A DNA stretch of 64,000 bases from Thuidium tamariscinum (taxonomy: Eukaryota > Streptophyta > Bryopsida > Hypnales > Thuidiaceae), in assembly GCA_947034885.2 (NCBI GenBank), contig OX344754.2:23702501-23766500 (forward strand), written 5' to 3'. Positions 6,185 to 49,657 of this stretch are shown in pieces. The position numbers and the translations under genes were made by a program. A model generated the notes under the pieces. The model saw only the letters and a program-made list of their open reading frames with translations. It had not been told where the DNA came from and did not search any database. Position 1 is the stretch's first letter; every line of letters begins with the position of its first letter.

Positions 6185-6190
6185 TGACTA

Positions 6191-6316
6191 AGGCCTTATT
6201 CATTAAAATGAGACAAACTGTAGTCTCATTTTAAGAACTTTCTATTTTAAGGCCTAAAAAGCTTTCATTAAATTGAGACTGCTCATTAAATTGAGACTGC
6301 TCATTAAATTGAGACT
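6191..6316. repeat. Left terminus: TIR, hairpin and 18-bp tandem repeats
   Basis: After the terminal inverted repeat, TTAAAATGAGAC and GTCTCATTTTAA form a 12-bp stem with an 8-base loop (about 6203-6234). An 18-bp unit, CATTAAATTGAGACTGCT, follows 2.8 times in tandem (6266-6316). A related TTAAATTGA word occurs in the right end, so this may be a subterminal transposase-binding region. Confidence 0.65.
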
Positions 6317-6788: not shown

Positions 6789-9659
6789 TCATTCTTCCAT
6801 TGACTCATTCTCCTCATCGTTGCGCTCATCGTTGCACTCATCAATTGCAAAGGCTGCCAATGATGCCTTAATGATGCCAATCTGTAGATTTGGAATCGAT
6901 ACTTTAGGTTTTTTGGTGTTCTCTCGAAAACGAGGCTTCCAAGCCGTTAGGATACAGCCCGTACTAGACCATGTTGGCTTAATCACGGTGTCTTCACGCC
7001 ACACATTTCCTTGTTTTGTGTCCCATCCTTCATATGTATCCATATTAATGTGCCGATTCGAGGCAGGCGTCCAATATTGAATTCGGATCATATGCATATG
7101 CCCTGGATCTGGACTTGGAGCCGTAATGGCCCTAGCAAGCCAAAATGGTTTTGGATCACCATTAGCAGGACGCACTGCAATAAAAGAACCTTCATGCATA
7201 TCAACATTAACACGGAATGAAGGACGTGGACGATCACGTCTACGTCCAACAAACGGCACATCTTCTGCATCTTCCTCATGCAATGTGCCATCTCTTTGCA
7301 TTCGATCTGTCTCATCCGGAGCAATCCGGGAAGCCGGCCAAAATCCATCAAGTAATGCTTCACGCGCTTGAAGAGGTGCATCAAGAGCTGCTCGAACAGC
7401 CTTCCAATAATCTTCCAAGGCACCATTCTTCCGCCTGAACTCTCCTGTATAATCATCATTTGCCATTTTCTTCCAATGCGCAACAAAACCATTCAATCCC
7501 TTCTTTATGTATTCAAAATCCTTCATCTTCTCTGGAGCAAGAGGTCGAGGATTGCCACTCGGCACTATAGGAAGTCCATCTTCAGTCTCGGACCACAACC
7601 TAATTCCTTTGCCATCCTCTGGCAACCACTTTGGATCATTACACAAATTTTTATACTCCATCAAAGGCCATCCATTTGAATCCATGAAAAATTTGAATTG
7701 TTGGGCTTTTGAATGCCCACCTAGAAAATCCCCTCCAGTGCCCAAATACCCCTGAACAAATGTTTTGAAGTCAAGAACTTCCTCAATGAAATGAGGAATC
7801 ACTGGGTGCGTTTCACAATCCATAAAGGATTTCATGAGCCTCGGAAGTGTTGGATAGCTACTTGTCTTCAACCTCAAGCTCCAACGACCAAAAAGAGCAT
7901 CAATGTCTTCGTGAGTGTGTCCTACAATGAGGAAATTGATGTAAACCTCACGAAAAATGCCTTTGCATACAAGCAAAGAGCAAAAAGCAAAAACATATCG
8001 ATTCTTGTTGTCCCCTGAAGCATTGTCTAATTGCAATATTAGCACCGGTGGAAGAGGTTTAGCCGGAAGTGGTTCCTGTAGAGGTGGAAGAAGGGAATCC
8101 AAGCAAGTTTCTGCTCCATTCAACATTGCCTTTGTCAATGTCGATTGGTCCCTCTCTATAGAAAATAACTTGCGCGATGAATTCTTTGGCGCTCCTTCCA
8201 AATCACGCAACAACCTCGCAATTGATCCAATGGTATGATTTGAATCTGTTGGATAAATGCTCAATCCGTAGTGTGCATATCGTACGTCGCCATGACCATG
8301 AGCAATCATACCTGTAACTGCTACAGGCATTTTCATGAAGGATTCAGTTACTTTTGTCTTGTGAGAGAAGTGCGGAGAAGCTGTCTTCGAATGATCCATC
8401 TTATCGTGAATGATGCACAACATCTTCTCAGGTTCTAGTATAGAAGTGCGACGATTAGAGTAATAGTACTCTCTATGAGACTCCTGCCCTTCATTATGGG
8501 ACTTGTAAAGATTAGTCCACTTCAATTTTGACTCAGCACCAATACAAGCTTTCCTTAGTTGCTTGTAGGTATCACAAACGCCACATCTAGAAAACGTATC
8601 TCCACGAGCCTTTGGAGCATATTCTGGAAAAGAAGCACGACGAATGTTGCTCAAACCGCTTGAAGATATTGGGGGCAAATCAAGCATTGCATTGGAAGAA
8701 TTGATTTCTTCTAATTGCTCACTCCAACGAAATGAGGACGGCAGAACCATTGCTGTGACTTTCTCGCCTGACTCAAGTGTCCTAGTCTTGTGTGGCATTT
8801 GATCAGCATCTGACTCAATAAGAGTTCGAAGTGTAGCAGTAGCTTGAACTGTATGCATGCGAGGCTTTTTGGTTCCCACATTTCCATGAACCTCTGCTTC
8901 CTCTCCACTTCTGGCTTTTCCTTTGTACCTGTAGAATGTACATTTTGCAATCCCATGAATTATCCACCAAGCAGTAGGACACACCTCTCTACCTTTCAAA
9001 GTTATCCACTCCTTGCCTTTATCGTCTTTGTGGATCTGTCTATGCACCTCTAGAAGAGTTTTGTTACGAGCCTTGAAGTCATTTCCTCCATACATTTCAG
9101 TTCGTATTGCCTGGATTTGTGCACGTGGAAAAGGTTGCACACAATTCTTCTCACAACAATTTTTTGTTGAAACTGTAGTGATTGATTCCATAGTCAAGAG
9201 AAGTTCTTTCTTGGGAGGGATTTGAGGATCAACTCTTTCGCGAGTTGTTTCATATGATCGAACCCCCTTACGAGCTCTTCTGCTAGAGGGGTTCATGGCC
9301 ATGTTGTATATGTGTGTCTGATCATGATCATACAGACGACCACCATCATAAAGAAACACTCTCTTAATATGCCAAGACCGTAGTGACCACATGTTCCCAG
9401 AAGAAAAGAGCTCCTTGTTCAAAGACTCCGCAATCTGAATGGCAACTCGGTCATCACCGAGAGACTTTCCATCGTGGTCTACAACCAGACCGGGATCAAC
9501 GTTTTGACAAATTCCTCTAGCAACATCCACCCTGTCATCGTTTTGGAGAGTAACAGACTGTGAGACCCATTTTGCACGAGGAATCCCCTCGCACATTTGA
9601 ACATCGTCAGGTAGAGTAGGCATTGGATTTTCAAATTCCTCAGGTCCATGAAAATCCAT
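6789..9659 (-). CDS. DUF7869-type transposase-like protein (956 aa)
   Basis: This is probably the DNA-cleaving and joining protein of the 20-kb element. An N-terminal region is followed by a Cys pair cluster (CCEKNC, about residues 168-173) and an AWWIIHGIAKCTFYRYK block typical of the family. A CGVCDTYKQLR zinc-type motif comes next. The RNase-H-like core has three acidic sites: IIHDKMD (about 415-420), LQLDNASGDNKNRYVFAF (about 543) and LIVGHTHEDIDALFGRWS (about 581). The spacing and wording match proteins annotated DUF7869, which are abundant in transposon-derived loci; a DDE/D catalytic role is inference. The frame also opens upstream to 9749. However, a good acceptor (CAATTGACAG) ends one base before ATG 9659, and a palindrome lies upstream of it, so I place the main coding exon start at 9659. 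Further small 5' exons are possible at 9.7-10.8 kb. Confidence 0.8.
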   Translation of the reverse strand: MDFHGPEEFENPMPTLPDDVQMCEGIPRAKWVSQSVTLQNDDRVDVARGICQNVDPGLVVDHDGKSLGDDRVAIQIAESLNKELFSSGNMWSLRSWHIKRVFLYDGGRLYDHDQTHIYNMAMNPSSRRARKGVRSYETTRERVDPQIPPKKELLLTMESITTVSTKNCCEKNCVQPFPRAQIQAIRTEMYGGNDFKARNKTLLEVHRQIHKDDKGKEWITLKGREVCPTAWWIIHGIAKCTFYRYKGKARSGEEAEVHGNVGTKKPRMHTVQATATLRTLIESDADQMPHKTRTLESGEKVTAMVLPSSFRWSEQLEEINSSNAMLDLPPISSSGLSNIRRASFPEYAPKARGDTFSRCGVCDTYKQLRKACIGAESKLKWTNLYKSHNEGQESHREYYYSNRRTSILEPEKMLCIIHDKMDHSKTASPHFSHKTKVTESFMKMPVAVTGMIAHGHGDVRYAHYGLSIYPTDSNHTIGSIARLLRDLEGAPKNSSRKLFSIERDQSTLTKAMLNGAETCLDSLLPPLQEPLPAKPLPPVLILQLDNASGDNKNRYVFAFCSLLVCKGIFREVYINFLIVGHTHEDIDALFGRWSLRLKTSSYPTLPRLMKSFMDCETHPVIPHFIEEVLDFKTFVQGYLGTGGDFLGGHSKAQQFKFFMDSNGWPLMEYKNLCNDPKWLPEDGKGIRLWSETEDGLPIVPSGNPRPLAPEKMKDFEYIKKGLNGFVAHWKKMANDDYTGEFRRKNGALEDYWKAVRAALDAPLQAREALLDGFWPASRIAPDETDRMQRDGTLHEEDAEDVPFVGRRRDRPRPSFRVNVDMHEGSFIAVRPANGDPKPFWLARAITAPSPDPGHMHMIRIQYWTPASNRHINMDTYEGWDTKQGNVWREDTVIKPTWSSTGCILTAWKPRFRENTKKPKVSIPNLQIGIIKASLAAFAIDECNDERNDEENESMEE

Positions 9660-9692
9660 TCTGTCAATTGCAAGTAAAACAATCAGAAGACA

Positions 9693-10537
9693 TATCACCG
9701 ATTCAACGATAAGTAGTACATCCGCAAAATCAAAGGAATCCAAGAACATGTATCGATCAGGAAAATTTCACGAATGAAAGGATGTCCGCTCAATCAGCAT
9801 ACTCCACTCTCAGAACATTCAAGATGTCACATTATTTCTATCGTATGTGAAGAGGACTTCATCACCAAAAAGAAAATAGTTATCACCGAGTCGATGATAA
9901 AACAAGCACTGCGGATATCATCAAGTCCGTAACCAAAAATGGTATACGATCTCTCTGCTTCCACATTAAGAATACAAGAAATACATTTATCACCGATTCG
10001 AGGATACATACGAATCATGACATCACCTTACTGAAATTGGAATATTTCAGGCCATTTCCAAAGACTTCCTACCTTAAAAACTAACACTTTCATTCGTGTT
10101 CAAATTCAAGCTAATGAGTATCGTCGCATCGATGATACTTTGTGAAACAAATCGAGAAATTCTGTTCATTATTTGTTCAACTACAACATGTTACATCCAT
10201 GAAATCGAAAATAAGCATAAGTGACCTTCCTGCCGAAGATGGTCTCAAGAACATGAAGGATTTGTTGACAACAACGCATAATCCACTGTGTGATCTGATG
10301 AGGAATTATCCTCGACTCGAGGATACTAATTACTATAAAGATGACGGTGAACTTCTGTGTTTTATAGAAATCTTCTCAAGATTATGACCCGATGAACTAA
10401 GTTCAATTAGTCAAAATGAACACAATAAAGTTCGACAGGAAGTGAACTCATAGTAGAAATATTATCATCGACCGGACGATAACTACGAGGTACCAAGGGA
10501 AATTGCAAATCCATATACTATCGTCGAGTCGATGATA
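9693..10537. repeat. Seven 19-bp dyads upstream of the transposase exon
   Basis: Copies of TATCVTCGANTCGABGATA start at 9693, 9881, 9988, 10119, 10307, 10463 and 10519, with a decayed one at 9916. The copy at 10307 (TATCCTCGACTCGAGGATA) is a perfect dyad. They lie in the presumed 5' introns or leader of the minus-strand gene; the nearest is about 31 bases from the acceptor at 9661. The intervening sequence gives no convincing exon, though short 5' exons cannot be excluded. Confidence 0.85.
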
Positions 10538-11284
10538 CCAGCTAACATCAGTGACTTCTAGTGATTCCTAAGTATCTAAAGTAATTGGTACACGGCGGAG
10601 GACAAGGTCACGGTCCGGTATTTCCGTCGACATTCTCGGGGACAAATCGCAGACTTCGTTTGCACACAAGCATTACATACATATCGATGTTCACTGTAAC
10701 ACCTAACCTCCCACCCTGATCCTATGGATACGTGCTCATTGAAAACACAGAGAACAAAAAACTTCAGAAGAGCTAATTCCGCACTGTGCACTGAAGCCAT
10801 GTACCTGTAAGCACCCAAGGACTATGTAAATGCTGTGTACTCAAAACTACTCCATTGTGTGTTGAAGCATTCCATCACGCAGCAAAAATGATGGCGGCAA
10901 TGAAGACGACGACATGGTGCGCGGGAGCTACAACATGAAAAGGGCTGGTATGTGAGAAAAAGCTCCTCTATGGACCCGAGACTCACAGTAAGGGCGGGGA
11001 AAAAAAGCGCGTAACGGATCCAATTTGAATTTTGTTGGGCCCACAGTCCCTACCTCACCATTTCATGGAACTTTGCTAAAAATATTTTGAGCGTCTGGTG
11101 GTGCCTATTGTCAGGTTCGTGCCACCGAATTGCGGAACCACTTTTCTTTTACACCTAAGGGTTCTCCACTAAAAATGGTATTTGTTGACTTCCTGGACTT
11201 GTAGCTTAGGATTCCTTCAGATTTCTAAAAGCAGATTCTATAATGTCCATTGCTAAAGCCTTCCAAGGTGTCGCAGTCAAGGGT
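10538..11284. other. Putative 5' region of the transposase gene
   Basis: This segment is more GC-rich than the flanks. A minus-strand 80-codon frame (10576-10818) contains closely spaced Cys residues (CNAC...CPREC) and could be a 5' exon, but no splice site links it convincingly to the main exon. The promoter for minus-strand transcription may lie here. Confidence 0.3.
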
Positions 11285-11455
11285 CTTTAGGGTTTAGGGT
11301 TTGAGATCAGGGTTTGGGGTCCCCGTTTTGGGTTTAGGGCTAGGGTTTCAGGGTTCCAATTTCTGGTCTGTCATAAGGGGTTAGGGTTTAGGGTTTAAGG
11401 AATTAGGGTTTAGGATATTAGGGTTTAAGGATTTAGGGTTTAGGGTTAGGATAAT
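11285..11455. repeat. Interstitial telomere-like TTTAGGG repeats
   Basis: Repeated GGGTTTAGGG and GGATTTAGGG words form a degenerate Arabidopsis-type telomeric array of about 170 bp inside the transposon. Similar single words recur at 17.3-17.5 kb. The array is too degenerate and too internal to be a chromosome end. Confidence 0.7.
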
Positions 11456-13822
11456 TCCTTCCTTATCAAAGCGTACAGACTAGGGTTTAGATACAATTCC
11501 TTTAGGTTTTGAGGGGTTTAACCAATAAAAGCCTAGGCATTGACAATTATATTATTTTGGGAACTCTAAAGTGAAAAAAATTTAATTGTATTCTTCTTTG
11601 TAGTAGTAGAGAATGTTCAAGAGATTTGTGAACACAATAATTTGTTTTCCAAAAGAGTGAATTCTATCATTCAGGTTTAGAGTCAAAAGACCTAGATTAA
11701 TTGCACATAATGTTCATAGCATTTAATGTCTAATCTGGAACTTCCATCTAGGACTAATCTACATTATATATTTAGTGGTCTTTAAATACACATCATGTAT
11801 TTCTTACAAAAAAGACAACCAAATTATTTATCCAAAAGAACTTCCTTACCTTCGATGTCATGAAATTGATGTTGTAACAGTTGTCCATAAATGGGTCTAA
11901 AGTTCAATTCTTATAAAACACTCATCTACCATGACCAAATTTAGCTTGGGTTAAGGAGGTCATCCTATAATTCTTGAGAAGAAAAAGGAAAGCACTGTAA
12001 TTTCAAAACCCAAAACTTGCATACTTCCGAAGTGAAGAAGATGACGTTGAAATCCTGAACTAAAAAACACTATAGTACTTTTAGTGCTCATGAATATGTG
12101 TTTCGTCTATAAAAATAGAATTTCACACCATTGAATATTGACCTCCTTCTAATAAATACAAAATATGAAGTTTTCTATAAAAGAAAGAATTTCACACCAT
12201 TGAATATTGACCTCCTTCTTATAAATACAAAATATGAAGTTTTCTATAAAAAAAAATTTTACACCATTGAATATTGACTTCCTTTTTATAAATACAAAAT
12301 ATGAAGTTCAGGGTTTGGGTTTGGGTTTAATTTCAATGGAAAAGTTGAAGATGTCATTCATACAGAAGTTCAATGCCTACTCATATGTATTGAGTGTCTT
12401 GTACAATGAAGACCATAATAAATTTGTAGAAGTCTATGGAATGACTTACATTTTGAGTGTTTCATGTAAGTATTCAATTTCATGTTCTGAAATTGGCCAC
12501 TTCACTATCGAAGATTCAGAACTCACACTCCTTTTTGGGAAATAATGCATTATTTCCACAAAATTAAGTTTTATATGCATAGGTGCCCAATACATTTGAT
12601 AGAAGTATGAATGTCCTACCACCTGAATATTCCATATCCAAAAGAACGTTCACGGTACCAAAGTGCGTGATAGCGCAGTCTTCAACACAAACCATTGAAA
12701 TAGAAATTGAACAGAAAGGAAGAATTGTTTCATCCTTGAAAGACAATACATTCATTATCATGTGATCACTTAACATTGTTCACGAAGATAAAAGCATTTC
12801 ATACATTATTTTGATGAGAAGATTATAAGTCACACCTAATGTTCTATAAATTCTAACATTATTTCCTTATATATTCATTGTATAGCAATGTAGATAGAGT
12901 ATGTGGAATACTTTGCGTGCACGGGCAGTACAACTGAATGATGGCAATATATCTAAAGCGCAACAATTCTTATTTGACAGTATGGCAGTTGAGCCGTTGA
13001 GATAATAAGTTAGTATCATTAATTTGATGAGAATGTGTTACTATAACTTACAATCATGACTTGCAATGATGACTCTTTCGGAAGATAATGTAATTGAAGA
13101 AGTGGTCACTTTTAACCCTTTAATGACCAATTGACCACTTTGAAGTTCATTTTGGCACTTTGTGTCAAGTACTTATTATAGAACATCTCATTTCAAAAAA
13201 ACTTAGAGAACAATGCCATTCTAGTGTCTCTATAAGCCCCTAACAAAGCCAATTTCAAGGAAATGTGTACAAAAATGCATTAGCTATTCTTGTCTGAACT
13301 TTAATTACTTGGCCCTTGGGCGGGACTATTAGACGTGATAGTGGGTCCGTGGTTTATGTGCACGGGCAACACAATCATGAGGATGTATGAGAATCATCAT
13401 GGGCTTAATGGCACCTAGAACAGCCTTTTCCTCGCTGCCACCATGGGAAAGCTTTGTGCCAACGGAATTCTTCAGCTATTCAACTCATACTTGAATTTGG
13501 ATTGTTCAGAATGTTCGACTGTTGAGATGGGTTTAGGGTTTAGAAAGCAATGTTAAACAGGTAATGATTTGGAAGATGACAAGTTGGAATGCCTGGGCCT
13601 TCAAACCATATGCTAGCTCAAAATGAAAGTGAAGTTGCTTGTTGGAAACCTTACCTCCTAGCTAGTATATTACCTCCTAGCTAGTATAGGTATTGCAAGT
13701 CTTGATTAAAGTCCCACTATGCCATTTAGGAATTTTTAGTAATCTGGACTAATTTTGAAGCGTCTATTCTTCAGTTTGGGCTTGACAACGTGCACAAAAC
13801 CCTAAACAGTATTCAACAGTAG
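11456..13822. other. Non-coding interior with 68-bp tandem repeat at 12109-12308
   Basis: Three tandem units of about 68 bp share CACCATTGAATATTGAC and AAATACAAAATATGAAG. No gene was recognised in the rest. Two stretches with GTGCACGGGCA (about 12,918 and 13,360) hint at further old insertions. Confidence 0.5.
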
Positions 13823-14476
13823 TTAACCCCTAATTGCCCAAGGCACCAAAATCTGGTGTTTGCAAAACTTTGAAGTTAAATAAGATCCAACCAATTTTCT
13901 ATTTTTAGTAGTTTGTATTTTTAGAAAGTTCTTCTAGAAGTCTAGTTTCAGTGTCAAAAATTCGATCTGGAAAATGAATGATAGTGATTTGTTTATACAA
14001 GATTTTGTACATAGGTACCCCTTGCAATCTTGACTTTCCGTAGTGTTGAGAGCTCTTGAAAATGAGCCTCAAATACACTGGATCTTGAAGAAAAAATCAC
14101 ATTCAAAATTCATTTAAAAAAATTGTAGAATAGATTTGAGGAGCCGTAAATTGATTGGAGTTGTGCATGTTAGGCCCTTTCACCTCATATTTTTTTGGTC
14201 ACCAACTTTTTAGATTTAACTTGCAAAAAGAAAATAAAAATACTTTAAATCACTCTTGCAGTTTTAACACCCTCATGGTCAAACATTATAATCTTTCACT
14301 CCACAAGTGTTATTGTTGTGTTTTCTTTTCCTATGTAATCTCTAACATGTCTAGTTTGAATTTGTACGGTTACAATTCAAAAAAGATTGATACAATTTAT
14401 CAATATGTTGGCATTTTGTTCAACTTAGAGCAAATTCTAAGAAGCTAGAAACAGGCCTTGGGCAGTTAGGGGTTAA
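13823..14476. mobile_element. TTAA-bounded small transposon (copy B), nested in the 20-kb element
   Basis: The inverted ends CCCCTAATTGCCCAAGGC and CCCCTAACTGCCCAAGGC (right end read inward) agree at 17 of 18 positions and are flanked by TTAA on both sides. The copy is 654 bp including the duplications and does not code. It inserted after the 20-kb element and is the best-defined member of this family in the window. Confidence 0.8.
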
Positions 14477-16107
14477 TCAAAGACACATTCTTTTAAAGTC
14501 TCCTACATTTGTGGTAAATATTGAATTATAAAAAACAATTAATGTCTTTGCTTTCTTCACATATCCGGGTGCCTTGCAAAATGAATGTAAGGTGATCCTC
14601 TGAAGGTATCAAAATGTTAAAAAATAATAATAATAATTTATAAAATAATAATGCTTGTCTTTTATTAGAAGTGTAACGAAAATAATAATTTTTTTAATAA
14701 AATAATTATGATTGTCTTTGAAAATAAGTACATTATTTTGGAAATTTATTTAGATTGGATTGGATTTTGTGTAAAAGCCTAGGCAATGCCCAAAGACTGT
14801 ACACAGTAACTAGAAATCATACACATTTAGGGCAATATTTCTCCTGGACAATCCTTGAACTGAAGGTTACAATCTTCTCTTACGTTTATGTAAGATGACA
14901 TGTGTAGAAGGGGTTGTTCCCTTTGTCCTTTTGGGAAGTTTATGTAATAATTGAAGAAGCTTCAATTCATTTCTAATGTCCTTGAGTTCTAATTCTATTC
15001 CAATTGAATGTCTTAAGCTTCAATTGAATGCCTATTCCGTGGTATTTGTATTTCATTTCCACTTCCCTTTCACTTTTCTTTTTTTGGTTTACGTTTTCAT
15101 TTCCGATTCCCCTTAATTAATTCATTGTGTGTTATAGTGTACTTTGCTTTCAAAGTTTCACCTCATTTTCCCTCTTCCAATATTCCAAATTTTTCCTTAG
15201 GCACTTCTGCCACATCAATTAAACTAAGCCCAATATCAAATTTGTCAAAATTCATCAATTCAGAATGTCGGTCACCTGAATTCTTATTCAAAAACATGAC
15301 ATCTTCAAAATTATATGGTAAATTTTTTTTTAATTGTAAAGATGACATTCATTTTATGTACTATTTTACTAACCTAGGATTTAGGGTGCCATTGAATAAA
15401 TCAAAGGCTTACTCTTATGTTCTTCATATGGCTAAATCGAAGGCTTAGTTATATGTTCTTCATATGGCAAAAACAACTTCCTCTCTGTATAGTGTACTTC
15501 GCTTCTTTATTTAAAGATTACTCTTACAACTATGGTGGGAACTCTTTGTAGACTTCATTAAAATAGTTGAATTTCCCAATGGTAATATTCCTAATTCTAT
15601 ATCAGAGTTGAATTAGCAATTTCGATACCCTTAAAAGCTTAGTTGTACAATATGTACATGATGGTTTGCAAAATGAAAGAGCTAGGATTATTTTCATATT
15701 TATTACCAAGGTTGATCACGCGAGCTCTAACTTACATAGTTCAAATTCATTTATTTCCATAATTGGAGAATGGGTCATTGACTTTGGAGTTTTGTGCTTT
15801 AACTTGTATACCTAAGATTTTTTTGGTTTTAGGGAATTCAATGATTTATATAGTCTGATAACCCTACATGGAGAAAACAACTAATTCTTATGCTGTTAAT
15901 CCTAAAAGACAAGGTTTTGTGTTTCAACCAATTTTTCCACGCATTTACATAGTGTTGCATACAAATGCAGTATCACTTCGTAGAATATGTGTGGAAATTT
16001 ATTCAAGAGGTAGTGTAATTCTAATTTTGTTTTGACTTTTATGTCTATTTTTTCTCTTCTTCATAAAAACTATTCACTTTATTGAAGAATATGGTGTAGA
16101 AATAGGA
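14477..16107. other. AT-rich transposon interior
   Basis: No gene was recognised. An open frame of 107 codons at 15125-15448 overlaps an antisense frame and shows no domain. Imperfect AATAATAAT runs occur near 14,625-14,710. Confidence 0.35.
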
Positions 16108-16352
16108 TATGGGAAATAAGGCGGGTCTAGATAATAGAGGCAGGTATGGGTATGACAGGCGTGTATGGGATTCAAGGCGGGTATTGGAATGAAGGCCGGG
16201 TACTAGGGCTGAGAGGCGGGTATGGAGACTGGGCGGGTATCTCAATGAAGACCGGGTACTAGGGCTGAGAAGCGGGTATGTCACCAAGGCGGGTATCCCC
16301 ATGATGGCCGGGTACTAGGGCTGAGAGGCGAGTATGGAGCCAAGGCGGGTAT
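16108..16352. repeat. GC-rich minisatellite (GGCGGGTAT / GCCGGGTACTAGGGCTGAG)
   Basis: GGCGGGTAT alternates with GGCCGGGTACTAGGGCTGAG in three to four imperfect higher-order units of roughly 60-80 bp. The array sits just upstream of the GC-rich stretch proposed as promoter and leader of the plus-strand genes. Confidence 0.7.
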
Positions 16353-17518
16353 CGAAATTCTGCAAGCCCACGACGAAGTTCACAAATCGAGTTTAGGGTT
16401 TGGTGCTCGTCTTCCTCATTTTGTGGGTTTTGTGTTCGTCTTCCTCGTTTTGTGGTTCTCCTTCTCTGATCGGTCGCACCTTTGTCGCCGCTCCTTACTG
16501 TCTCGGTGCGCGGGCAAGTCTCGAGATTTGGCGCTCCTTCTTTGCAGCTCGGTAGTCTGTCGGTTCGTTTAGGAGTCTCGCCGCGTGGGTCCAATTCGTT
16601 CCTGCTTCTCTCGGTGGTCTCTCGGTAGTCTTTCAGTGCTTGAGCAACGTCTCGCTGCGCGGGGAGAATCTCGGTTGGTGGAGCGCATTGGTGGGTTATA
16701 AGTTGTGTGTAGGAAGAGGAGGAGGGTGCATTTGTGTTGTTGTTTTTGTCATTGCTATTTGGTAGCTGGCGATTTGGCATTTGTGTTTTTGAAAGCACGT
16801 GCACGTCGGAGAGGCGTGTTGGAGGCGTATTGGAGGTGTTTATCAGCAAGCGAGGCACATCGGAGGCGCTGCAGCGTCGCCAACCCTAATTTTGAGGGTA
16901 AGTTTCTTTTGGCTTTAGGTACGAGTGTTTTTTTGAATCCAGGAACTTCCAATTTCTGCGTTTCCTGTTCTACTTGGTTGGCTTCAGGGGATGAGACCGT
17001 TTGCTAAGCTGAAAACATTGTCTGTGTAGGTACTGTTTGAGGGATCCCTTGGAGAATCGTTGTTGAGGACGAGTGCAAGCGTTTGGTTGTGTTAAGGGAG
17101 GCCAGGGTGCGTAGCTGTAGCAGTTGGAAGTGGAAGGAGAAGGTGATTTCATGACCTCTTCCATTCTGAAGTAATTTTGTAGCATTTGTTTCTGGATTTG
17201 GTTAGGGGTGCAGAGCTTCAGATGGTTCACTGAAGACATTGTTACTGTAGAGTTCCATAGGCTTTGTGAATCCTGACCTCTTCTCTGTAAATCGTGAAAC
17301 CGTGGACCCTGAGGTCCTATTTGCAATTAGGGTTTATGGTTTAGGACTCTAAAATCGACCTCAACTTCAGAGGAGAGGTACCGCTTACCTCTTCCCTTAG
17401 GACTCTGAAATCCTACTTTGAATTAGGGTTTAGTACCACGGCCCTAAAATCCTTCAACAGAATTGTAGAGAAAACACCACGTCAGTAGGGAATTAGGGTT
17501 TTACGGACTAAACCCAGA
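16353..17518 (+). promoter_or_regulatory. Putative promoter and leader of the plus-strand transposon genes
   Basis: The base composition switches to GC-rich here. A consensus donor (GAGGGTAAGTTT, about 16,896) could start a leader intron that ends at the acceptor TTGATTTCCACAG just before ATG 18604. Overlapping open frames on both strands look like composition effects. The promoter assignment is inference from position. Confidence 0.35.
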
Positions 17519-18558
17519 TATCGTCGATTCGAGGATAACTTTACAAAGAACTACAAACAACTAAGTCACCCTAGTCCAGGTTTCTGAGCAGGTCAATCAT
17601 TTATCGTCGATCCGATGATAATATAGCATATATGTTATACCAATTAAAATTCACCTCTTTAGCCCTCTAACCAGCTCTTCAGCTTATCCTCGACTCGAGG
17701 ATATCCTCTTTTTCCCTTATAGCAAAAAAAAGATGAACTTAAGACTCCTGCAAGGTTATTAGGTCTCAGAGAGTTTCACGGTTATCATCGAGCTGATGAT
17801 AACGTCGAGAATATTGTGTTCACGGTTGTCACGTAGTCAGTGACAACGTAGTGGATTGGTATGAGAGCCTTTAGAGTAAGAAAAGTTCCTCAAATTATCC
17901 TCATAGAGCTTCAATTATAAAGAAAGTTATAACCACGATCATTACCCACCAAGTACAAAACTAGTACTTTGATATAGGATGTTGAAATTTTTCCACACTG
18001 TCTTTGAGTAGCAGTGACCAAAATATGAAGCCTGTACATGTCGTCCTCGTTATCACCGAGTCGATGATAACTAATAGACTGTGTTTCGCCACAGAAATCA
18101 TGGGACTTCTTTGATAGTCTCTTAGAATCAATGATAACAAGCAAAGCAATTATCACTTCCAAGGGCCAGACATAAAAATAATGTTTCATCGAGTCGAGGA
18201 TAAGGTGGGCTCCATTCTGAAAACCTCAAGTATCCAGTAGCTTCGTATTGAAAAAACATAAGAAATTCCGACGTTGGTCTCTGTCGTATGACGACAAGCC
18301 TGCTTCACAGACGTTCATGCAGCGATGTCAATTTCCATTGACACGTACTAGATTAGCGACTGCTATCATCGACTCGATGATAGCAGGCATCTTCTCCGCA
18401 AAGAAGACACCCTTTCCGTCGTGGGATCCTTAGAAGATCCTGGTTTAACCATCTAGTAGATAAAACTTAAGGTTATCTCTTACATGGAACTGTGTCTTGG
18501 AATTGCAAAGATATTCATTACATTGTGCGATGAAGAATTTATCATCGCATCGATGATA
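17519..18558. repeat. Eight 19-bp dyads in the leader intron
   Basis: Copies start at 17519, 17602, 17685, 17783, 18051, 18184, 18364 and 18540. The copy at 18364 sits in a 25-bp perfect dyad with one central base (18361-18385). A ninth, diverged dyad at 17825-17847 (GTTGTCAC...GTGACAAC) keeps two-fold symmetry with changed bases. The last copy ends 35 bases before the acceptor at 18593. No exon was recognised between the copies. Confidence 0.85.
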
Positions 18559-18603
18559 AGCAGTTTATAACATTGTGAAATTGATTTCCACAGGAATCTC
18601 CAA

Positions 18604-21600
18604 ATGGATACCCTTGATGGCTACGACTACTCCTCTACAGCACACCATTTGGAGCCATTTCTGAACCCTTTAGAAAACGAGCCATTCATCGCAGAGATGG
18701 CGGACACGTATGGTACACTTTGGAAATTCAAGGATCACATAGACACGTGGAGTTTTGGGGTGAACTGGTTCCGAAACTACGTATACCTCCGATATCGCGT
18801 GCGGGGTACGAATACTTTCATGCCCTGGAACATGAAAGAGAAGGTCATTCTCATTGAAGAGCACCATGTGAACTTTGTCGTCATTGTACTTCGTGCTGTC
18901 GACGAGGCGGGGAGACCTGAAGATCACTGCCACTCCATCGTTCTGGACGTAAATTGTTCCCACGGCAATTTCGACCTTCCCAATCTTATGACGTTTTTGG
19001 AAGGTTCTCAGATGGAGTCCTTGAATGGCCAATTCGTAAAATCAGGATACGTTCCTTGGAAAAGCAGCACAGCCAAGTCCAACGCCGCAAGACTGCGATT
19101 AATTTTCCAGACTTTGGACCGATATGCCCTGGAGAATGTTGAAAAACAACCTGCAGGTGTTCGAAGCAACGAACAAATGCAACCACCACGACAGCAAAGT
19201 GAAAGTCGGAAGCCAAGATCAGCATCTGCTGCAGGGTCGGGTGGTAGGGCCTCAAGACCTGGATCAACAAGGTCTGAGCCCAAAAGACAGGAGCCCCCAT
19301 CATCCGGAGATGGGGAGTCAAGCCGCAAAAGGAAGAAAACCGGGAACAGCAGACCTGCAAGGGGCTGTAGTTCAAGTTCCGCCCTCACAACAGTTTCGGT
19401 TCCCACAACGGCAAGCAAAGATGAGGTACCAGTACACGAGAAGTTCCAGAAAATTCAAAAACAATTCTGGGCCGACCACAAGACCTGCTTCTTGTTTGAC
19501 GACGCTGCTATGAAGATTGACATCAAGCAGTGCATTATTGCACGGCCACACTATGTCATTCGCACATTGCAGAGAGATATAGTGGACGCCGTGAAAAAGG
19601 AGCTTGTCCAGCTCATAGATGTCAAGCAGCGGCAGAAGGTTTGCCTTACACCTGTCGACACGAATAAGAGATTGCTGTAGACAAGACCGGAATCGTGGGA
19701 CCAAATCAAGAATGGCCAATTCATGATCATCAACGGCCAACATAGCATAACGGCTTCTCAGGAGCTTCAGAAGGCTAGGTGCGGGGAGACCCGGAAAATT
19801 GAATTGAAGACGTGGGACGCCTATATTGTGTGGACTCTAGATGCGACCAAATTAAGAAACATATCGAAGTTCTACAACTGCACTAACCACCTTGACCATG
19901 CCCAGCCCACATGGGGCAATCAAATAATTAGTTGCAGGAGAATTTGGATAACATACAAGCGTCCCACGGATACTCGCACTGAGGACACGACAAGGAAGAA
20001 CAAGGCAGTGTGGTCTCTAGATAAGTACAAGGTAAGAATTGTTTTGGGTACATTATCGTCGAGTCGGTGATAGGTAGGTTGGGCATGTGAGTCGTCTTCT
20101 TTTGCAATTTTCCAAAGGCTGACTTGTCATATTATTATTTTGATTTCTCCCTTTATTTCTTCTGAATCTATCGAAGAGATCCAAGGTATCATCGAGTCGA
20201 CGATATTACTGGAAATGAGGTCAATATCCTACAATACCTGACTTGCTTGTCGTGTAAAATGCAGAGATTCACGGATGCAGTAATTGAGCGCTTTCAGAAT
20301 ATCAACCCTGAGCGGGATGGCGCCTCGATAACTAGCACTTCCGATCTGAAGAATGAAATCCAAATTATCACCCTTCCCGATAATTTATGGATACTCTGGA
20401 AGAACTTCTTGACGAAGCACGCAGACGGAGACTTGATCGACCCCTGCGCCTTGACACCATACAAGAAAGTGAAGGGCTTCAAGATCAAGAACATGTCGTT
20501 GAAGCGGGAGTTCTTCAAACACTTCGGCCACTTTACAGACGTTGATTTTGGAGCGAATGCTGCTCATCTTCTAGGCGAAACGCCGGGACGTCTTGCTATA
20601 TATCCCAAGGTTTCGGTTGCGGCAACTAGGATCTGTGTTCCAGATAACACAACCCACAAGGAGTGGGTTGAGAGGAGGAAGAGGAAAAAAGTTATCCTCC
20701 AGGATCTAATGGCCGTGAAACCTGACCTCAGATTTTTGAATGCTGGTGGCGACGTTGTGGACACCGCATGGAGAGCCTGGAAAGCACGCCACAAATTCAC
20801 TTCGGCGTCGTGGGATTTCTTGCTGACTCACCCTTCGGCAGATTATTACAAGAAACGCCTACGAAATGAGGGTTGGTTGAAGCGTGCGAAAGACCTCGAG
20901 AAGCAATTCCCCGCGGTTCTGCATATGTTCACAAGATTTATGCAGTTGAAGTATCACCTTCCTGAAGAAGGTGGCGAAGTGCAAGTGCGTGGGGTAGACA
21001 TGAATGCCAAAGCGTTGGTGAAAAGCTCTACCTATCAGTACGAGAGCAGGGAGGTCAACTTTGCGCTCGTGGACTTCAGAGAAGCGCCTAGAGCAGAGGC
21101 CACCGAAACTGAACGCCCCATCGACCCCTTCCTCAAGTTTCTTCATGTGAATCTTCAGCCGAAGCTGACGGACCCAAACATATGGCTCTTCGTGCTGAAG
21201 AGCAACAGCGACTTGAAGGCGGCAAAGTTGTTTGCCACTAAACATCTTGCAACTTACGAGTTCACTGTTTGCACGTATTCTCCGGGCAGAGCGGAGTTGT
21301 TGGGCAACCTCTCCAATCGAACGCCAGCGGTAGACGTTCTTCTCATGTTCTTGTTCAAGAAGAACAACTACTTCGCATCCTCCAGTCGCGATTTAGTGAA
21401 GAAGAAATATTCCGTTCTGGTGGAAAATACGTATTTCTGGGATTGGGGGAAGAACACCGAGGCGAAGTGGAGGATAGAGACCACGGAACTACGCATGGAG
21501 TTCTATCTAGAAATGCTGCAAACCTTTGCGAAGCCGAACGAAAACGTTTTAGGTGTTTATGCCGGAGCGAAGTTCATGCTGGCAGCAAAGGTGAGTTTCT

Positions 21601-23555
21601 TCCTGTCCTGATTGTTATCCTCGCATCGGTGATACAGTCCCCCTCGGTTTACATGTTAGTTTCAGCCATCTTTGCAGTGACGTACATGACATTAGATTGA
21701 TGTCAAGATGTATCATCGAATCGATGATACCGCGGGGTATATGAAATGTTGTCTTTTTATTCGTAGTACTGACGATATAGTTTTATTGGTTCCTTGATAT
21801 GTTCTGCAGATGTTTGGAGCATATTATTATGCCTTCGTTGATAAGAGGGATGTGAAGGCATATCTGGCAATATCTTACCTGGCCAAGAAGATGGATTGGA
21901 GGGATTTTATGATGTCAAATTCCCCTTACTCCATGACCTACGTGAAGCCAGCTACTCGTATCGCCGATGAGGATCGTTCGGATTCGCCTGCCACACCTCC
22001 CATGATCTCACCGGTCGCAGAGGACAACCTAGACGTTCAAGAGAGGGAGAATGTTGGCCCACAAGTGACAACCGATCCAGGTGTGCAAGGGCTCGATGAG
22101 TTTGGAACGAACACGTTCCAAATTTACTTGTGGATGGCAAGTGCAGAGGTGACTCCACAAGCTGCACAATCTTCACAAGCTCCACAAGCTAGCGTACAAC
22201 CAGTAGATGAACAGGATTTGGAGCTGGTCGAGTTGCAGGATGAGGAAGGAGATCCATCAAAGTCTTCTTCTTCCGCAGAAGAGGAAATTGAGGGAGATGA
22301 CGAGATGGAGACAGACTCGGAGTTCGAGCGACAGAGAGGCGAGGGTGGAGGGCGAACACAGGAATATGATGACGATCCCCTTGACTTTGGAGATTAGGGT
22401 GCTTCTTTCCTGAAAGAAGGGTCCGCGGACGACGACGTCGTCATGCAAGAGGCAGCGCAAGATGGTGTACGCGCGGAGGGCACCTCTACCCAAGGCATCC
22501 CAGCGCCAAACGCCGTGGATAAGGACGGGAAGCCCCTGTTCTACGACTTCGGCAGTGACGATGATCCACTCGATCATCCTCACGAGTCCGATAACGACGA
22601 TGAGGACCACGACGGTGCTCCGAAGCAGACGGAGCTGAAGCCGCTGATACTTCCTGATGGCAAAGTGATGAAGGTAGAGAGAGACCACTGGAAGGAAGAG
22701 GAAGAGAAGCGAGAACGACGCGCAGCTCGGAGGGCTGAGAATGCGAAGAAGGACAAAGAGTTGGCCGATGCGCGCGCACAAATCATCGAGGTGCAGCAGG
22801 ACTCGCAGCAGAAGATTTCGCATCTCTCCAGTCAATTTGAGGAGCTGAAGAGGATGTTCCAAAGTCAATTCAGCCAGGGCGGGACTCCTCCAATGTCGCA
22901 GACCTCAACGCCAGCGTTTTCAATTCCAACACCTCCCGCTCCTACGGAGGTCGCAGTCCTTGTGGCTGGACTTCCTCATCCTCAAGTCGAGGATAAGCAG
23001 CTCGCTTATCCTCAAGTCGAGGATAAACAGCTCGCTTATCCTCGAGTCGAGGATAACGCTCATGTGACCTCATTGACCCACGATGAGGTCGTGGCGTGCA
23101 CACCAGCATCACAGTTGACTCCATGTGTGGTCTCACCTGATGTAGGTGCTTTTCAGATTCCCCAACCAAGGGGACCTGTACTAGAGGAGGCTCGCGACTA
23201 TCGTCGACTCGACGATATTCTGGAGGATACAGGCGAGAAAGACTTAGGCACACCTGCACCAGTGTGTCAGATGTCGGAGCAAGTTGAAGTCTCAGCGGAA
23301 GTCTCTTCTCCCGTGGACGATGTAGAGAAGTTAGACTATGGAGAGAATGATGCTGACGACGTTGTCTCTGGAGAAGGCGATGTGGATGCCCTCGCCGTTG
23401 CACTCGGAGAGCAAGCCGCCCTGGACACAACTGGGTCCGCGCAGGTACAGAACTCTGACCCTTACCGCTTTGATTGACTTCAGGTAACTTGGAAAGTGGT
23501 CATGAATCTCATTTGTACTCATGGTTTCTGGCAGGAGGAGGTCGCAACTCCTTGA
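18604..23555 (+). CDS. ParB-like / methyltransferase-like transposon protein, multi-exon, frame interrupted
   Basis: Exons are inferred at 18604-20031, 20265-21590, 21810-23444 and 23535-23555; all three joins are phase 0 with GT-AG ends. The first about 190 residues are a globular domain I do not recognise. A Ser/Arg/Lys-rich linker follows, then a ParB/DGQHR-like motif (MIINGQHSITASQEL). A long alpha-rich region leads to a C-terminal block, NENVLGVYAGAKFMLAAK plus FGAYYYAFVDKRDVKAYL, that resembles motif I of beta-class DNA methyltransferases. An acidic, coiled-coil tail ends the frame. ParB-methyltransferase fusions are known in bacteria and phages; the link here is inference. TAG codons stand in frame at 19678 and 22395, with the same frame open on both sides. 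The gene may therefore be decayed, or it may be several shorter genes. AATAAA at 23681 is a likely poly(A) signal. Confidence 0.6.
19681..20031 (+). other. ParB/DGQHR-like motif region
   Basis: The hydrophobic-strand-plus-GQH pattern (GQFMIINGQHSITASQELQ) matches the core of ParB/sulfiredoxin-fold and DGQHR domains, in which a Gly-[EQH]-[RH] turn binds nucleotide. The segment starts right after the TAG at 19678 and runs to the donor at 20032. The similarity is by eye only. Confidence 0.5.
20032..20264 (+). repeat. Intron A (233 bp) holding two dyads
   Basis: The donor AAG|GTAAGA and acceptor AAATGCAG|A bound an intron whose two dyads lie at 20054-20072 and 20187-20205. The first begins 22 bases after the donor; the second ends 59 bases before the acceptor. 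Confidence 0.8.
21500..21900 (+). other. Degenerate methyltransferase motif I split by intron B
   Basis: Exon residues VLGVYAGAKFMLAAK join FGAYYYAFVDKRDVKAYL. The family pattern is VLDxFxGSGTTxxAA, then GRxxxGxExxxxYxxxA, with the motif at the C-terminus as in circularly permuted beta-class enzymes. The Asp and the GSGT loop are not conserved, and no (D/S)PPY motif was seen upstream. A binding or structural role is more likely than catalysis. Confidence 0.45.
21591..21809 (+). repeat. Intron B (219 bp) holding two dyads
   Basis: The donor AAG|GTGAGT and acceptor GTTCTGCAG|A bound an intron with dyads at 21616-21634 and 21711-21729. The second is perfect (TATCATCGAATCGATGATA). The first begins 25 bases after the donor, much like intron A. 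Confidence 0.85.
22443..23477 (+). other. Acidic, coiled-coil tail region of the ParB-like frame
   Basis: Asp/Glu-rich runs (SDDDPLDHPHESDNDDEDHD) precede a charged coiled coil (EEEEKRERRAARRAENAKK and on to QQKISHLSSQFEELKRMF) and a Pro/Thr-rich stretch. It lies in the same frame as the preceding exon after a TAG at 22395, so it is either the tail of that protein or a separate gene starting at ATG 22443. If intron 23445-23534 is not spliced, the frame ends at 23477. Confidence 0.55.
22950..23270 (+). repeat. Four dyads in an open frame; possible retained intron
   Basis: Dyads at 22977, 23007 and 23037 lie 30 bp apart in tandem and encode AYPQVEDKQL repeats; a fourth is at 23199. A GAG|GTCGCA donor-like site at 22950 and a GTGTCAG acceptor-like site ending at 23270 would remove exactly 321 bases (107 codons), in phase 0 like the other introns. 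The region could be an intron that stays open when retained. The donor is weak. Confidence 0.55.
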
Positions 23556-23680
23556 TTGCCTGGCGCTGACGGAGAACCCGTCTGCGGCGGAAAACGTGTA
23601 GATTAGTGTAGAGTACAAATCTCAAGAGTGTATAGTTTTTGGCGGACTAAAATTTTGAAATGTATATACTAAGCGACATC

Positions 23681-23686
23681 AATAAA
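23681..23686 (+). terminator. AATAAA poly(A) signal after the ParB-like gene
   Basis: The canonical hexamer lies about 125 bases after the last stop, in an AT-rich stretch and upstream of the next gene. Confidence 0.5.
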
Positions 23687-23949
23687 AATATATACTTCAC
23701 GATCTACAAACTGTGAATGGTGTCTAATTGTACTTCACTGTCTATGTTTTGACTCAGCTTGAAAAAAATGTAAGCTTGCATCGCCCGCGACCCACGAAAG
23801 CACTTCCTACTAGAAGGGCGCGGTCGAGTAGAAAATTACAATGCGTGTCTCCGCACTCTGCCTTTACCAGTTCCGCATGTAACCAGGTAACTCCAAATTC
23901 TTTGTTGTCCTGCTTTTATCAGGTAGGATCGGAGGGGCGAAGAGAGGTC

Positions 23950-24750
23950 ATGCGGAGGATAGACCGTCCTATGATGCCTCCGCCCAGGAGGAAGTGGCTG
24001 AACATTGTCTTCGACCTGAACGGGGTGTTGTGCCACACCACAATGAAGTCCTACGGAGACAAATTCAAACCGTACAGACTCGAAGACAATGTTCTGAGCC
24101 ATCAGAACCCCACGATCATCGGCCACAAGGCGGTGTTCGCGCGACAGAACGTCGCCGAATTTCTCCGACACGTTTCGGAGATAGCGAATAAAATCGTAGT
24201 GTGGTTGTCCATGGCCAAGAGAAACGCGGAACCGATCGCGGAATTCTTGTTCCGGGGGTGCAGACCGCCCTACAATGTCTTAGGCCAGGAGCAATGCACC
24301 AAAATAGAAACAGCTCCTGGCAAATTTTTTCGTTGGGGAAAGTCGCCCTTGTTCATGAAATTCCTTGAGGGCGATCTCATGGGCACTGACAGTCAGGGCG
24401 CGTCGTTCTTTGCGCACGACACCATCCTCATTGATGACTCTCCCGAAAAGAGTGTCCTCAATGTGAGTGGAAACACGCTCCTTCTGGAGTCGTGGACCCA
24501 CGATATGCGCAGGGACGACGTGCTCATGGGGCAGCTCCTGCCGTGGATCCGCCGACTCCACTCGGAGTGCGACCCGGAAGGGGAGTTGCTCGAATACGTC
24601 GACGACAACCGGATCGGCGTCAATCCGCTAGGCCGCGACGACGCCCACTATAAGGAAATAGTGGGAGCGATGAGGGAGTCCGCCGAGGTCATGGGGGCTC
24701 GATTTGATAGCTTCAACACGGGCCTCATTGCACCGAGGCGACGTCGTTAG
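23950..24750 (+). CDS. FCP1/NIF-like HAD-fold protein (266 aa)
   Basis: This is a HAD-superfamily protein of the FCP1/NLI-interacting-factor group, which dephosphorylates phospho-serine in proteins such as the RNA polymerase II tail. Motif I is IVFDLNGVLC (about residues 22-31), motif II VVWLSMAKRN, and motif IV ILIDDSPEKS. The second acid of the usual DxDx(T/V) is Asn here. I recall a DLNG form in some plant FCP1-like proteins, but it makes standard phosphatase chemistry doubtful. ATG 23950 is preferred because the domain begins soon after it and an acceptor-like TTTTATCAG lies just upstream. The frame is open to 23728 without homology. It sits inside the 20-kb element, in line with the ParB-like gene. 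AATAAA at 24841 is a likely poly(A) signal. Its role in transposition is unknown. Confidence 0.75.
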   Translation: MRRIDRPMMPPPRRKWLNIVFDLNGVLCHTTMKSYGDKFKPYRLEDNVLSHQNPTIIGHKAVFARQNVAEFLRHVSEIANKIVVWLSMAKRNAEPIAEFLFRGCRPPYNVLGQEQCTKIETAPGKFFRWGKSPLFMKFLEGDLMGTDSQGASFFAHDTILIDDSPEKSVLNVSGNTLLLESWTHDMRRDDVLMGQLLPWIRRLHSECDPEGELLEYVDDNRIGVNPLGRDDAHYKEIVGAMRESAEVMGARFDSFNTGLIAPRRRR

Positions 24751-24840
24751 AATTAGACTTTTTTGTAGTGGCGCGCATTCAGGGAGCACAGGCATATCGT
24801 ATCGTATCATATTTTTTCATGTATGACATAATTTTTTGTA

Positions 24841-24846
24841 AATAAA
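24841..24846 (+). terminator. AATAAA poly(A) signal after the HAD-fold gene
   Basis: The hexamer lies 91 bases after the stop at 24750, in an AT-rich stretch before the next open frame. Confidence 0.5.
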
Positions 24847-24905
24847 ATATATTCAATTGTATATATATCACATTACTTCGTTCTTTTAGAAGATGTCTTT
24901 GATAA

Positions 24906-25889
24906 GTGGATGATAATTTGACATGTACTCATGGAGAGAATTCGACGGTGGGTTCTTGTAACCATTGTGCAATGCAGGTTTCAACCTTTCACTCTGTTCC
25001 AACACACAAAAGACAGAGGCTCACGAGGAGCCTCCTCTCGGGGTCACTCAAGTCGCAGTCCATTGACAGTTCTGAATCTGACGGTGGGAGCTGCGAAACA
25101 GCTCCCGTGTCCAAGCCTTACATGTTGCGTTCGGCCGCCGACGCGGCGTCCGCGGCCATAGACTTCAACAAGGGAAACATCGAGGACGGCGTCGTCAACA
25201 GTCCCCCGAGTCGCACATCGGGGAGGACTCCCATCTGCTCGCCTTCTCCGTTGAGGCGGACATCCTCGAGTCCAAGGCGATCCTGGTCGCCGGATCCGCG
25301 GGCGGATGCTGCGACGAGTCGGAGATTAGAACTTCCCAACGACGATGTTGGGGGGGATCCTCGATGCGAGGATGCGGTGCCGTCGTCTTCCCCGGTGCCC
25401 GCTAGCCCCACCAACAGAGTGAAGTCGACTATTAGACCAGTGCCAGACACAGTGGGCGAACCTACCTCGACATATGCAACTCCCTGTTTACCTCAACTCC
25501 ACGATAATCCAACCCGTTCGTCACCGTCCACGGGAGCTAGACGTCTCTCATCCTCGGATAGTCTTTTTCGTCAACGTATTATTAGAGATCATCGACGTTC
25601 TCTCGACGCCAAGTCGAGTGGAACTAGTCCAGCGTACGTAGGCAATGAGAAGGCGTCGGTGCCTAGGTCGCGTGAACAATATTCGAAATCCCTTTCCACT
25701 TCAAAAATTCCTCAAGACATGCGCAAGTCAAAACGAAAAGCCACTGCATCTCTTTGTCTGAGCGAGACCGGCGCTTTGCATAGTGGAAGTAGCACGCATT
25801 ATTCTTCTCGACGCGAGGACATCTTAAGAGGTCTTGCAAAGCTGAAAGCCATGGAAGCAGGAAAGGGAATTTCTGGAACGAAAAAATGA
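24906..25889 (+). CDS. Ser/Arg/Pro-rich disordered protein (327 aa)
   Basis: I do not recognise this protein. The N-terminus has Cys/His residues (CTHGENSTVGSCNHCAMQ) that could bind zinc. The middle is low-complexity Ser/Pro/Arg, and the C-terminus is basic with a short helix (REDILRGLAKLKAMEAGKG). Codon use and GC content match the neighbouring transposon genes rather than the AT-rich flank, which supports real coding. A decayed dyad lies in the frame at 25356-25374. It is the last gene before the right terminus. A structural or DNA-packing role would fit the composition, but this is a guess. Confidence 0.55.
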   Translation: MDDNLTCTHGENSTVGSCNHCAMQVSTFHSVPTHKRQRLTRSLLSGSLKSQSIDSSESDGGSCETAPVSKPYMLRSAADAASAAIDFNKGNIEDGVVNSPPSRTSGRTPICSPSPLRRTSSSPRRSWSPDPRADAATSRRLELPNDDVGGDPRCEDAVPSSSPVPASPTNRVKSTIRPVPDTVGEPTSTYATPCLPQLHDNPTRSSPSTGARRLSSSDSLFRQRIIRDHRRSLDAKSSGTSPAYVGNEKASVPRSREQYSKSLSTSKIPQDMRKSKRKATASLCLSETGALHSGSSTHYSSRREDILRGLAKLKAMEAGKGISGTKK

Positions 25890-26567
25890 TGCCCAAGAAA
25901 GAGAATAATGTTTTTTAGAGCACGTGGTACTTTACTTTTTTACTAAAAATAAAAAAAGACGTCAACAGAATTTACATTTAGAAGGTCCATGCTTCATACT
26001 ATAAATAGAAAAAGACGTAAATGGAACTAAGATTTTGAAGGTCCGTTCTTCATATGTAGTCCTATCTGTAATTAGTATCCAAATGGACATACAGCAATAC
26101 TATGAGAGGATGGAGGCTTCATTCATATACAATGAACCTCTACAATTTTTCTTCATTCAATGTGAATCATAAACTTTCATGATGATGTATTTCTTCATTG
26201 AAGGTAAATCATAAAATTTCACTATGATGTATGCACTTGAAGGGAGTATCTAGGGAAGGCTCACATACCTTTTGTCAAAGTCTATCAGCCGCTAATGCCC
26301 TAGTCTATGTAGTAGTTCATAGACTTGCCCAAGTCTATCAACTCTATTGGAATTGAAGTTCCATGTTTTTCTCCATAGTGCACATCACGCCCCTATGAAG
26401 ATATGTCAGTGACCCACGGATATTGCTTGTTTTGAATTATTGAAAACAACTTTAAGTCCAATTGTATTTATCCTTGGATTCAACAACTTCTACCTCAATA
26501 TGAGTTTGGCACTCAATATTGAAAGTCTCAAAATGACTATATTGTATCAATTTAACGAATAAGGCCT
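25890..26567. repeat. Right subterminal DNA and right TIR
   Basis: An imperfect tandem duplication of about 60 bp (about 25,940-26,060) shares AAAAAGACGT and GAAGGTCC...CTTCATA. The last 26 bases are the right inverted repeat, ending AATAAGGCCT at 26567. TTAAATTGA and GAGACTTTC words (read inward) echo the left terminus. Confidence 0.65.
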
Positions 26568-26736
26568 TGACTAATCTTTTGAATGTAGATTCTAGAGTAA
26601 ATTTAATACTACTTATATTTCACAAATTTGGAATTATTATTCTTACTACATCACTTTGGAAATTATTTGACACTTGAACTTCCTAAGGCAAAATCTTCAA
26701 AACCCATGAATTTCTAGATTCTTAAAACATATATAT

Positions 26737-42651: not shown

Positions 42652-49657
<7,006 letters not shown>

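Follow-up and report, generated by a model that had tools for sequence, protein, structure and literature searches.

What does a short palindrome do when it recurs some two dozen times within one transposable element and is absent from the DNA on either side? This question is raised by a 64,000-nucleotide stretch of the genome of the moss Thuidium tamariscinum (contig OX344754.2, forward-strand positions 23,702,501 to 23,766,500), here called the window; all coordinates below are positions within it. The window holds a 20.4-kb element with terminal inverted repeats (TIRs) that encodes a protein of the DUF7869 family. The original prediction, made from the letters of this DNA, had described in the element 23 copies of a 19-bp dyad, each half reading TATC[ACG]TCGA towards a free centre, and had proposed them as sites for a symmetric dimer. 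Our preferred reading, which we put at close to an even chance, is that the dyads would bind a two-fold symmetric protein dimer, most probably a product of the element itself, that keeps its main transcription units expressible.

A Recurrent Dyad within One Element

The 23 dyad starts that had been listed were all recovered at their exact coordinates. The pattern itself was more degenerate than described: all 23 sites lie within two mismatches of it, but only 9 fit it exactly. With up to three mismatches allowed, there are 24 matches in the window: 9 are exact, 9 have one mismatch, 5 have two and 1 has three. Across 100 dinucleotide shuffles, the mean was 0.09 and no shuffle had more than 1. 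These 24 span positions 9693–25374. The remaining 43.6 kb of the window has none, which upholds the claim that the dyad is absent outside 6.2–26.6 kb. When T or C was permitted at position 6 and A or G at position 14, the number of exact dyads rose to 13, and all 24 matches at up to three mismatches were again inside the element. At exactly four mismatches this relaxed pattern gave 5 matches inside and 2 outside, and at five mismatches 6 and 11, respectively. Three decayed copies had also been proposed. The one at 25356 stands as a borderline copy with three mismatches, whereas 9916 has six mismatches (its left half alone is recognizable by eye) and 17825 has 15. The latter overlaps a different inverted repeat, by eye GTTGTCAC...GTGACAAC, in which the best dyad register, 17827, has seven mismatches.

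Palindromes as such are not peculiar to the element, since 19-mers in which 8 or more of the 9 arm positions are complementary number 22 inside it (13 of them dyads) and 23 outside; the dyad sequence is. In a collection of viral contigs, the relaxed dyad was rare, occurring in 25 stretches with a single site each and no clusters, a count that is uninformative on the host.

Symmetry and Limits of the Dyad

Pooling the 46 half-sites gave an information content of 14.3 bits for the half and 28.6 bits for the full dyad. The outer arms read TATC/GATA in 21 of the 23 copies, and the remaining two deviate by one base. A weak additional T follows outside the arms (26 of 46 half-flanks), and the next seven positions have no clear preference. 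The 20-bp flanks of different dyads (250 pairs, omitting those less than 60 bp apart) had a mean identity of 0.305 and a highest identity of 0.475; control places in the same segments gave a mean of 0.297 ± 0.006 and a mean highest value of 0.498. The flanks are therefore hardly more similar than controls, and the conserved unit is the 19 bp alone, with sharp limits.

Half-sites rarely occur unpaired: dyads account for 17 of the 18 left halves and for all 19 right halves. No covariation is seen between positions 5 and 15, which are complementary in 10 of 21 copies (tandem copies 22977 and 23007 left out) against a shuffle mean of 8.05 (p = 0.24). When four dyads were folded as single-stranded DNA and compared with shuffles, those with complementary arms gave z values of -3.35 and -4.00, and those with non-complementary arms gave 0.39 and 0.66. 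A DNA hairpin is disfavoured because positions 5 and 15 do not covary and because copies with non-complementary arms fold no better than shuffles. Two equivalent half-sites in double-stranded DNA instead seem to be what is constrained, a pattern characteristic of a dimeric binder. The symmetric-dimer site of the original prediction thus keeps its two-fold symmetry, its free centre and its paired halves. Together with the lack of covariation, these fit a protein dimer on double-stranded DNA better than a hairpin, and from them we infer protein binding.

Two sources of the dyads were considered and rejected. Insertion with target duplication is disfavoured in that direct repeats at the borders of 21 dyads (again leaving out 22977 and 23007) are not in excess. 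Duplication of a larger unit is disfavoured by the essentially unrelated flanks, the exception being a 30-bp tandem repeat in a coding exon. Possible origins, for which other copies would have to provide evidence, are ancient duplications whose flanks have decayed and short tracts of conversion. The helical phasing of 18 spacings was 0.07–0.22 at 10–10.5 bp, with a maximum, for which no significance test was made, of 0.46 at 11.5 bp.

Position of the Dyads Relative to Genes

The element has two main transcription units, an open reading frame (ORF) with the DUF7869 domain and a large gene, ORF B (Table 1). Introns and exons are predictions from the sequence, made with a splice-site matrix. The density of dyads is 7.4 per kb upstream of the DUF7869 ORF (6 in 811 bp), 7.3 upstream of ORF B (8 in 1103 bp), 8.6 in intron 1 (2 in 233 bp), 9.1 in intron 2 (2 in 219 bp), 2.4 in exon 3 (4 in 1668 bp, three of which form one tandem repeat) and 0.3 in the DUF7869 ORF (1 in 2961 bp); apart from limits set by ORFs and splice sites, these segments were delimited post hoc, with the site positions known. 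Within ORF B, introns make up 9% of the length yet hold four of the eight dyads (P = 0.004), or four of six once the tandem trio is collapsed (P = 0.001). In this single copy of the element, 19 of the 23 dyads fall outside the predicted coding exons with the start of the DUF7869 ORF placed at 9659, and 18 with it at 9749. None of the 23 falls in 10.56–17.5 kb, in exons 1 and 2, in the NIF gene, in ORF D or at the element ends; the closest dyads lie 3503 bp from one end and 3351 bp from the other. Because the dyads avoid the ends and lie mainly in predicted introns and upstream regions, gene control is indicated and a role in transposition is disfavoured.

Further introns can be drawn from the splice scan. 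Cluster B is bracketed by a donor at 16898 (9.4, the top score in 16.0–18.6 kb) and an acceptor at 18594 (8.4); a stronger acceptor is found at 16943 (10.6), and weaker donors lie inside 16898–18594. Minus-strand donors, each scoring 8.0, stand at 10804 and 10072. The true start of the DUF7869 ORF may be an in-frame ATG at 9659; the CAG immediately before it scored under the threshold of the scan. The dyad that lies within the ORF before this ATG may belong to a leader or an intron. As judged from the sequence, it is possible that all dyads outside exon 3 are intronic.

Table 1. Dyads, ends and genes of the element (window coordinates)
Feature	Positions	Strand	Remarks
Cluster A, 7 dyads (9693, 9881, 9988, 10119, 10307, 10463, 10519)	9693–10537		Lies 5' of the DUF7869 gene or right at its start
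Cluster B, 8 dyads (17519, 17602, 17685, 17783, 18051, 18184, 18364, 18540)	17519–18558		5' of ORF B
2 dyads, predicted intron 1 (20032–20264) of ORF B	20054–20205
2 dyads, predicted intron 2 (21591–21809) of ORF B	21616–21729
3 dyads as a 30-bp tandem repeat, ORF B exon 3	22977–23055
Single dyad, ORF B exon 3	23199–23217		Codon phase as in the tandem trio
Decayed dyad in ORF D	25356–25374		3 mismatches
Whole element	6191–26567		TIRs AGGCCTTAT..., 6-bp direct repeat TGACTA on both sides
Left TIR	6190–6216	+	Similarity continues imperfectly to nearly 70 bp
Right TIR	26542–26568	-	Inverted repeat pair and extended end alignment
986-aa ORF with DUF7869	6789–9749	-	Pfam PF25273, E 1.9e-45
ORF B, three exons (18604–20031, 20265–21590, 21810–23477)	18604–23477	+	Predicted splicing
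NIF/FCP-type phosphatase ORF	23728–24750	+	PF03031, E 1.2e-11; no dyads
ORF D, 327 aa	24906–25889	+	No family match above threshold

Structure of the Element

The host of the dyads had been called a transposon, and its ends bear this out. Its TIRs are 27 nt long, 89% complementary and 20.3 kb apart, with termini AGGCCT...AGGCCT, and a 6-bp target-site duplication (TSD) flanks the element; an alternative 7-bp duplication, TGACTAA, with less symmetric ends is possible. Since a DUF7869 protein is encoded between TIRs with a target duplication, this is a DUF7869-encoding TIR element. The DUF7869 ORF is probably the transposase; the family is catalogued as having no known function. Immediately internal to the left TIR, an 18-bp unit, TCATTAAATTGAGACTGC, occurs in 2.9 (about three) exact copies at 6265–6316 and is a candidate subterminal transposase site.

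The exons of ORF B join in phase 0 at GTAAG/GCAG and GTGAG/GCAG sites. In-frame TAG codons interrupt it at 19678–19680 and 22395–22397, so the element copy is at least partly dead, and both codons may reflect decay of this copy. The NIF/FCP-type phosphatase ORF is probably cargo or a captured gene.

Other repeats are present. The dyad-free middle of the element contains a 69-bp tandem repeat in three copies (12106–12308). A GC-rich 56-bp tandem repeat of about 3.2 copies (16173–16353) opens a CpG-richer stretch and is perhaps the promoter region of ORF B. With the dyads masked, the only other over-represented 8–10-mers of the element among the 12 or fewer top words listed per length belonged to telomere-like TTTAGGG sequences or, for 8-mers, to the GCGGGTAT tandem repeat. 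Of the 16 telomere-like AAACCCTAA/TTAGGGTTT words in the window, 13 are in the element, with seven near 11.3–11.4 kb (11287–11441) and three just before cluster B (17327–17501). Plant teloboxes can recruit regulators. The window also holds an RPN2 gene and ankyrin-PGG genes, identified by Pfam, which with the TTTAGGG words suggest a land plant, and an ORF at 42652–43083 that by eye resembles the C-terminal part of hexokinase, and which we take, without a search having been made, to be perhaps a processed copy.

Proposed Role of the Dyads

VANA21 is the transposase gene of the Arabidopsis element VANDAL21, the anatomy of which guides our proposal. Motif-bearing repeats of VANDAL21 lie upstream of VANA21 as well as within introns of both VANB21 and VANC21 (PMC5735166); the motif is abundant in one family and bound by the element's own VANC protein, and methylation is lost locally (PMC5735166; PMC10398659). 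By analogy with this anatomy, a dimer that keeps both units of the moss element expressed is deemed the likeliest mechanism. The dimer would be encoded by the element, the product of ORF B being the first candidate, and would occupy numerous positions across the 5' regions and introns of the two main transcription units. Once loaded, it would keep both expressible, either by countering host silencing or by activating transcription directly, as VANC does on VANDAL elements.

We searched for such a binder and for relatives of the element. ORF B and ORF D matched no Pfam family above cut-off, and no comparison with the VANC sequence was made. A binder domain in ORF B was sought in Pfam and NCBIfam (three exons), PHROGs (exons 1 and 2) and PDB sequences (exon 1), with nothing convincing found, and the DUF7869 ORF likewise gave nothing convincing against PDB sequences. 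Weak matches, under the family cut-off or with no stated cut-off (MMS21_N, Nup35_RRM_2, Rrn6_K-rich, Dynactin_p62, Zn_ribbon_TOP3B and others), were set aside. Close relatives of the DUF7869 protein, of an exon-1 piece and of exon 2 were absent from viral contigs, as judged by a tool that detects close relatives only. The DUF7869 protein had no match in phages, and searches for ParB_N and DGQHR in two viral records scored 0 of 2. Literature searches for DUF7869 by name, for the dyad sequence as text and for the TnpA/Spm 12-bp motif together with demethylation found no match. A search on transposon-encoded anti-silencing with palindromic sites matched only TET/JBP transposons, and among the matches listed for giant transposons of ferns and mosses the only related subjects were fungal Starships and a review of transposon tools. 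Literature linking ParB to transposons or bryophytes yielded nothing of use besides PMC12730594.

Several points weigh against the proposal. Element proteins contain no DNA-binding family above curated cut-offs in Pfam and NCBIfam, and single-sequence AlphaFold models were unusable (mean confidence score, pLDDT, of 29.4 for the exon-1 piece and 30.7 for the DUF7869 piece). Four dyads are in coding DNA, and intact sites are missing from both the NIF gene and ORF D. A synonymous-site calculation for coding dyads gave P = 0.006 (23037) and P = 0.002 (23199); these values are partly circular and carry little weight, because the dyads had been chosen for matching. Nor does the proposal account for a 28-bit word in about 20 unrelated contexts. 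VANC motifs are 8–9 bp long, of one orientation and arranged in tandem repeats, with binding and demethylation demonstrated (PMC5735166; PMC10398659); the dyad is a 19-bp palindrome, only 3 of 23 copies are in a tandem repeat, and it is also exonic. CpG content lends no clear support either. With dyads masked, the observed/expected CpG ratio was 0.69 in dyad-bearing non-coding DNA and 0.58 in all dyad-free non-coding DNA of the element, too close for local protection from methylation to be read from it, and this argument was dropped. The dyad-free value fell to 0.42 in a subset excluding 16.0–17.5 kb and two short gaps; the ratio was 0.83 in 16.0–17.5 kb, 0.45 in intron 1 and 0.43 as the median of 1-kb windows outside the element. 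Within the dyads, two CpGs to each, 41 of 46 are intact, which is partly so by definition.

The same anatomy, with palindromes resembling operators ahead of both main genes, would suit a dimer that represses the element's own genes and so keeps transposase dosage low. We consider such a self-limiting operator unlikely: many consecutive sites suggest loading over a region, and both the intronic dyads and a spread over 0.8–1.1 kb are unusual for simple steric repression. No more probable is that the element exploits sites of a host transcription factor. The dyad can be viewed as inverted GATA words around TCGANTCGA, to which the near-constant TATC/GATA outer arms and the weak outer T would correspond. 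Plant factors usually read less than the roughly 28.6 bits, with strict pairing, that are found here. The flanking host DNA has no dyad at up to three mismatches, although 43.6 kb is too short to exclude such sites. A very short palindrome that spreads by itself, or by conversion, inside the element and has no function would account for the unrelated flanks and sharp edges, and 28-bit sites are hard to believe as products of point mutation. This origin is improbable, given that direct repeats around the dyads are not in excess, no site lies outside the element in the window, and location is non-random, with introns and 5' regions occupied and 10.56–17.5 kb empty.

Two further explanations are very improbable. 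The dyads might be bound by the transposase for excision or insertion, in the manner of the subterminal TNPA motifs of CACTA elements; the element has TIRs and many repeated motifs, and motifs of the TNPA type likewise recur, partly in inverted orientation (PMC2613891). This explanation is largely refuted by position, as both end segments are devoid of dyads and the distances of more than 3 kb to the ends compare with repeats within 159 and 732 bp in Tgmt* (PMC2613891). The other is that the dyads are partition or pairing sites like parS, to which the palindrome is similar in size, with a ParB-like domain of ORF B as the binder. By eye, NGQHSITASQEL in exon 1 resembles a ParB/DGQHR signature; it was unsupported by any search. 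The read-through translation of exon 1 had no ParB/DGQHR match in Pfam up to E 10 or in NCBIfam up to E 5, PDB sequences gave no match, a 214-aa piece had no tblastn match in phages or plasmids, and the structure model could not be used. We retain, at the strength given at the outset, the element-made dimer that keeps both units expressible.

Comparison with Known Systems

CACTA elements (En/Spm, Tgm) carry subterminal motifs that are bound by TNPA/TNP1-type proteins and needed for transposition (PMC2613891). Like them, the moss element holds many copies of one motif; the CACTA motifs are bound by an element protein, with little conservation of sequence between families. Unlike them, it has its dyads more than 3.3 kb from both ends, termini of AGGCCT rather than CACTA, and a TSD of 6 bp, not 3. 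KDZ/Plavaka transposons, likewise eukaryotic DNA transposons, carry TET/JBP accessory genes that are thought to aid escape from methylation, and their TSD is 8 bp in Zisupton and 7 bp in two Kyakuja families (PMC12730594). The moss element differs in its 6-bp TSD, and the TET/JBP family was unmatched in the seven element ORFs scanned. 

By analogy, the VANDAL/VANC anti-silencing system is the closest known. As in VANDAL21 and VANDAL6, the motif in the one copy seen here is dense and lies mainly in non-coding parts of element genes, and additional genes are carried. Unlike VANDAL, this is a DUF7869 element in which no VANC-like protein was recognized, and binding is predicted from sequence. A bolder version of our proposal, which we regard as possible but doubtful, is that anti-silencing or self-activation arose independently of VANC: an uncharacterized plant transposon of the DUF7869 group would mark its own introns and 5' regions with long palindromes, and one dimeric element protein would recognize its own family only. 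The predicted site is specific enough for direct checks of binding, demethylation and confinement to the family. A second sequence-specific anti-silencing system, in another transposon, would point to repeated evolution of such self-recognition. Relative to VANC, the proposed system would be a variant with long, palindromic and mostly non-tandem sites in a different transposon.

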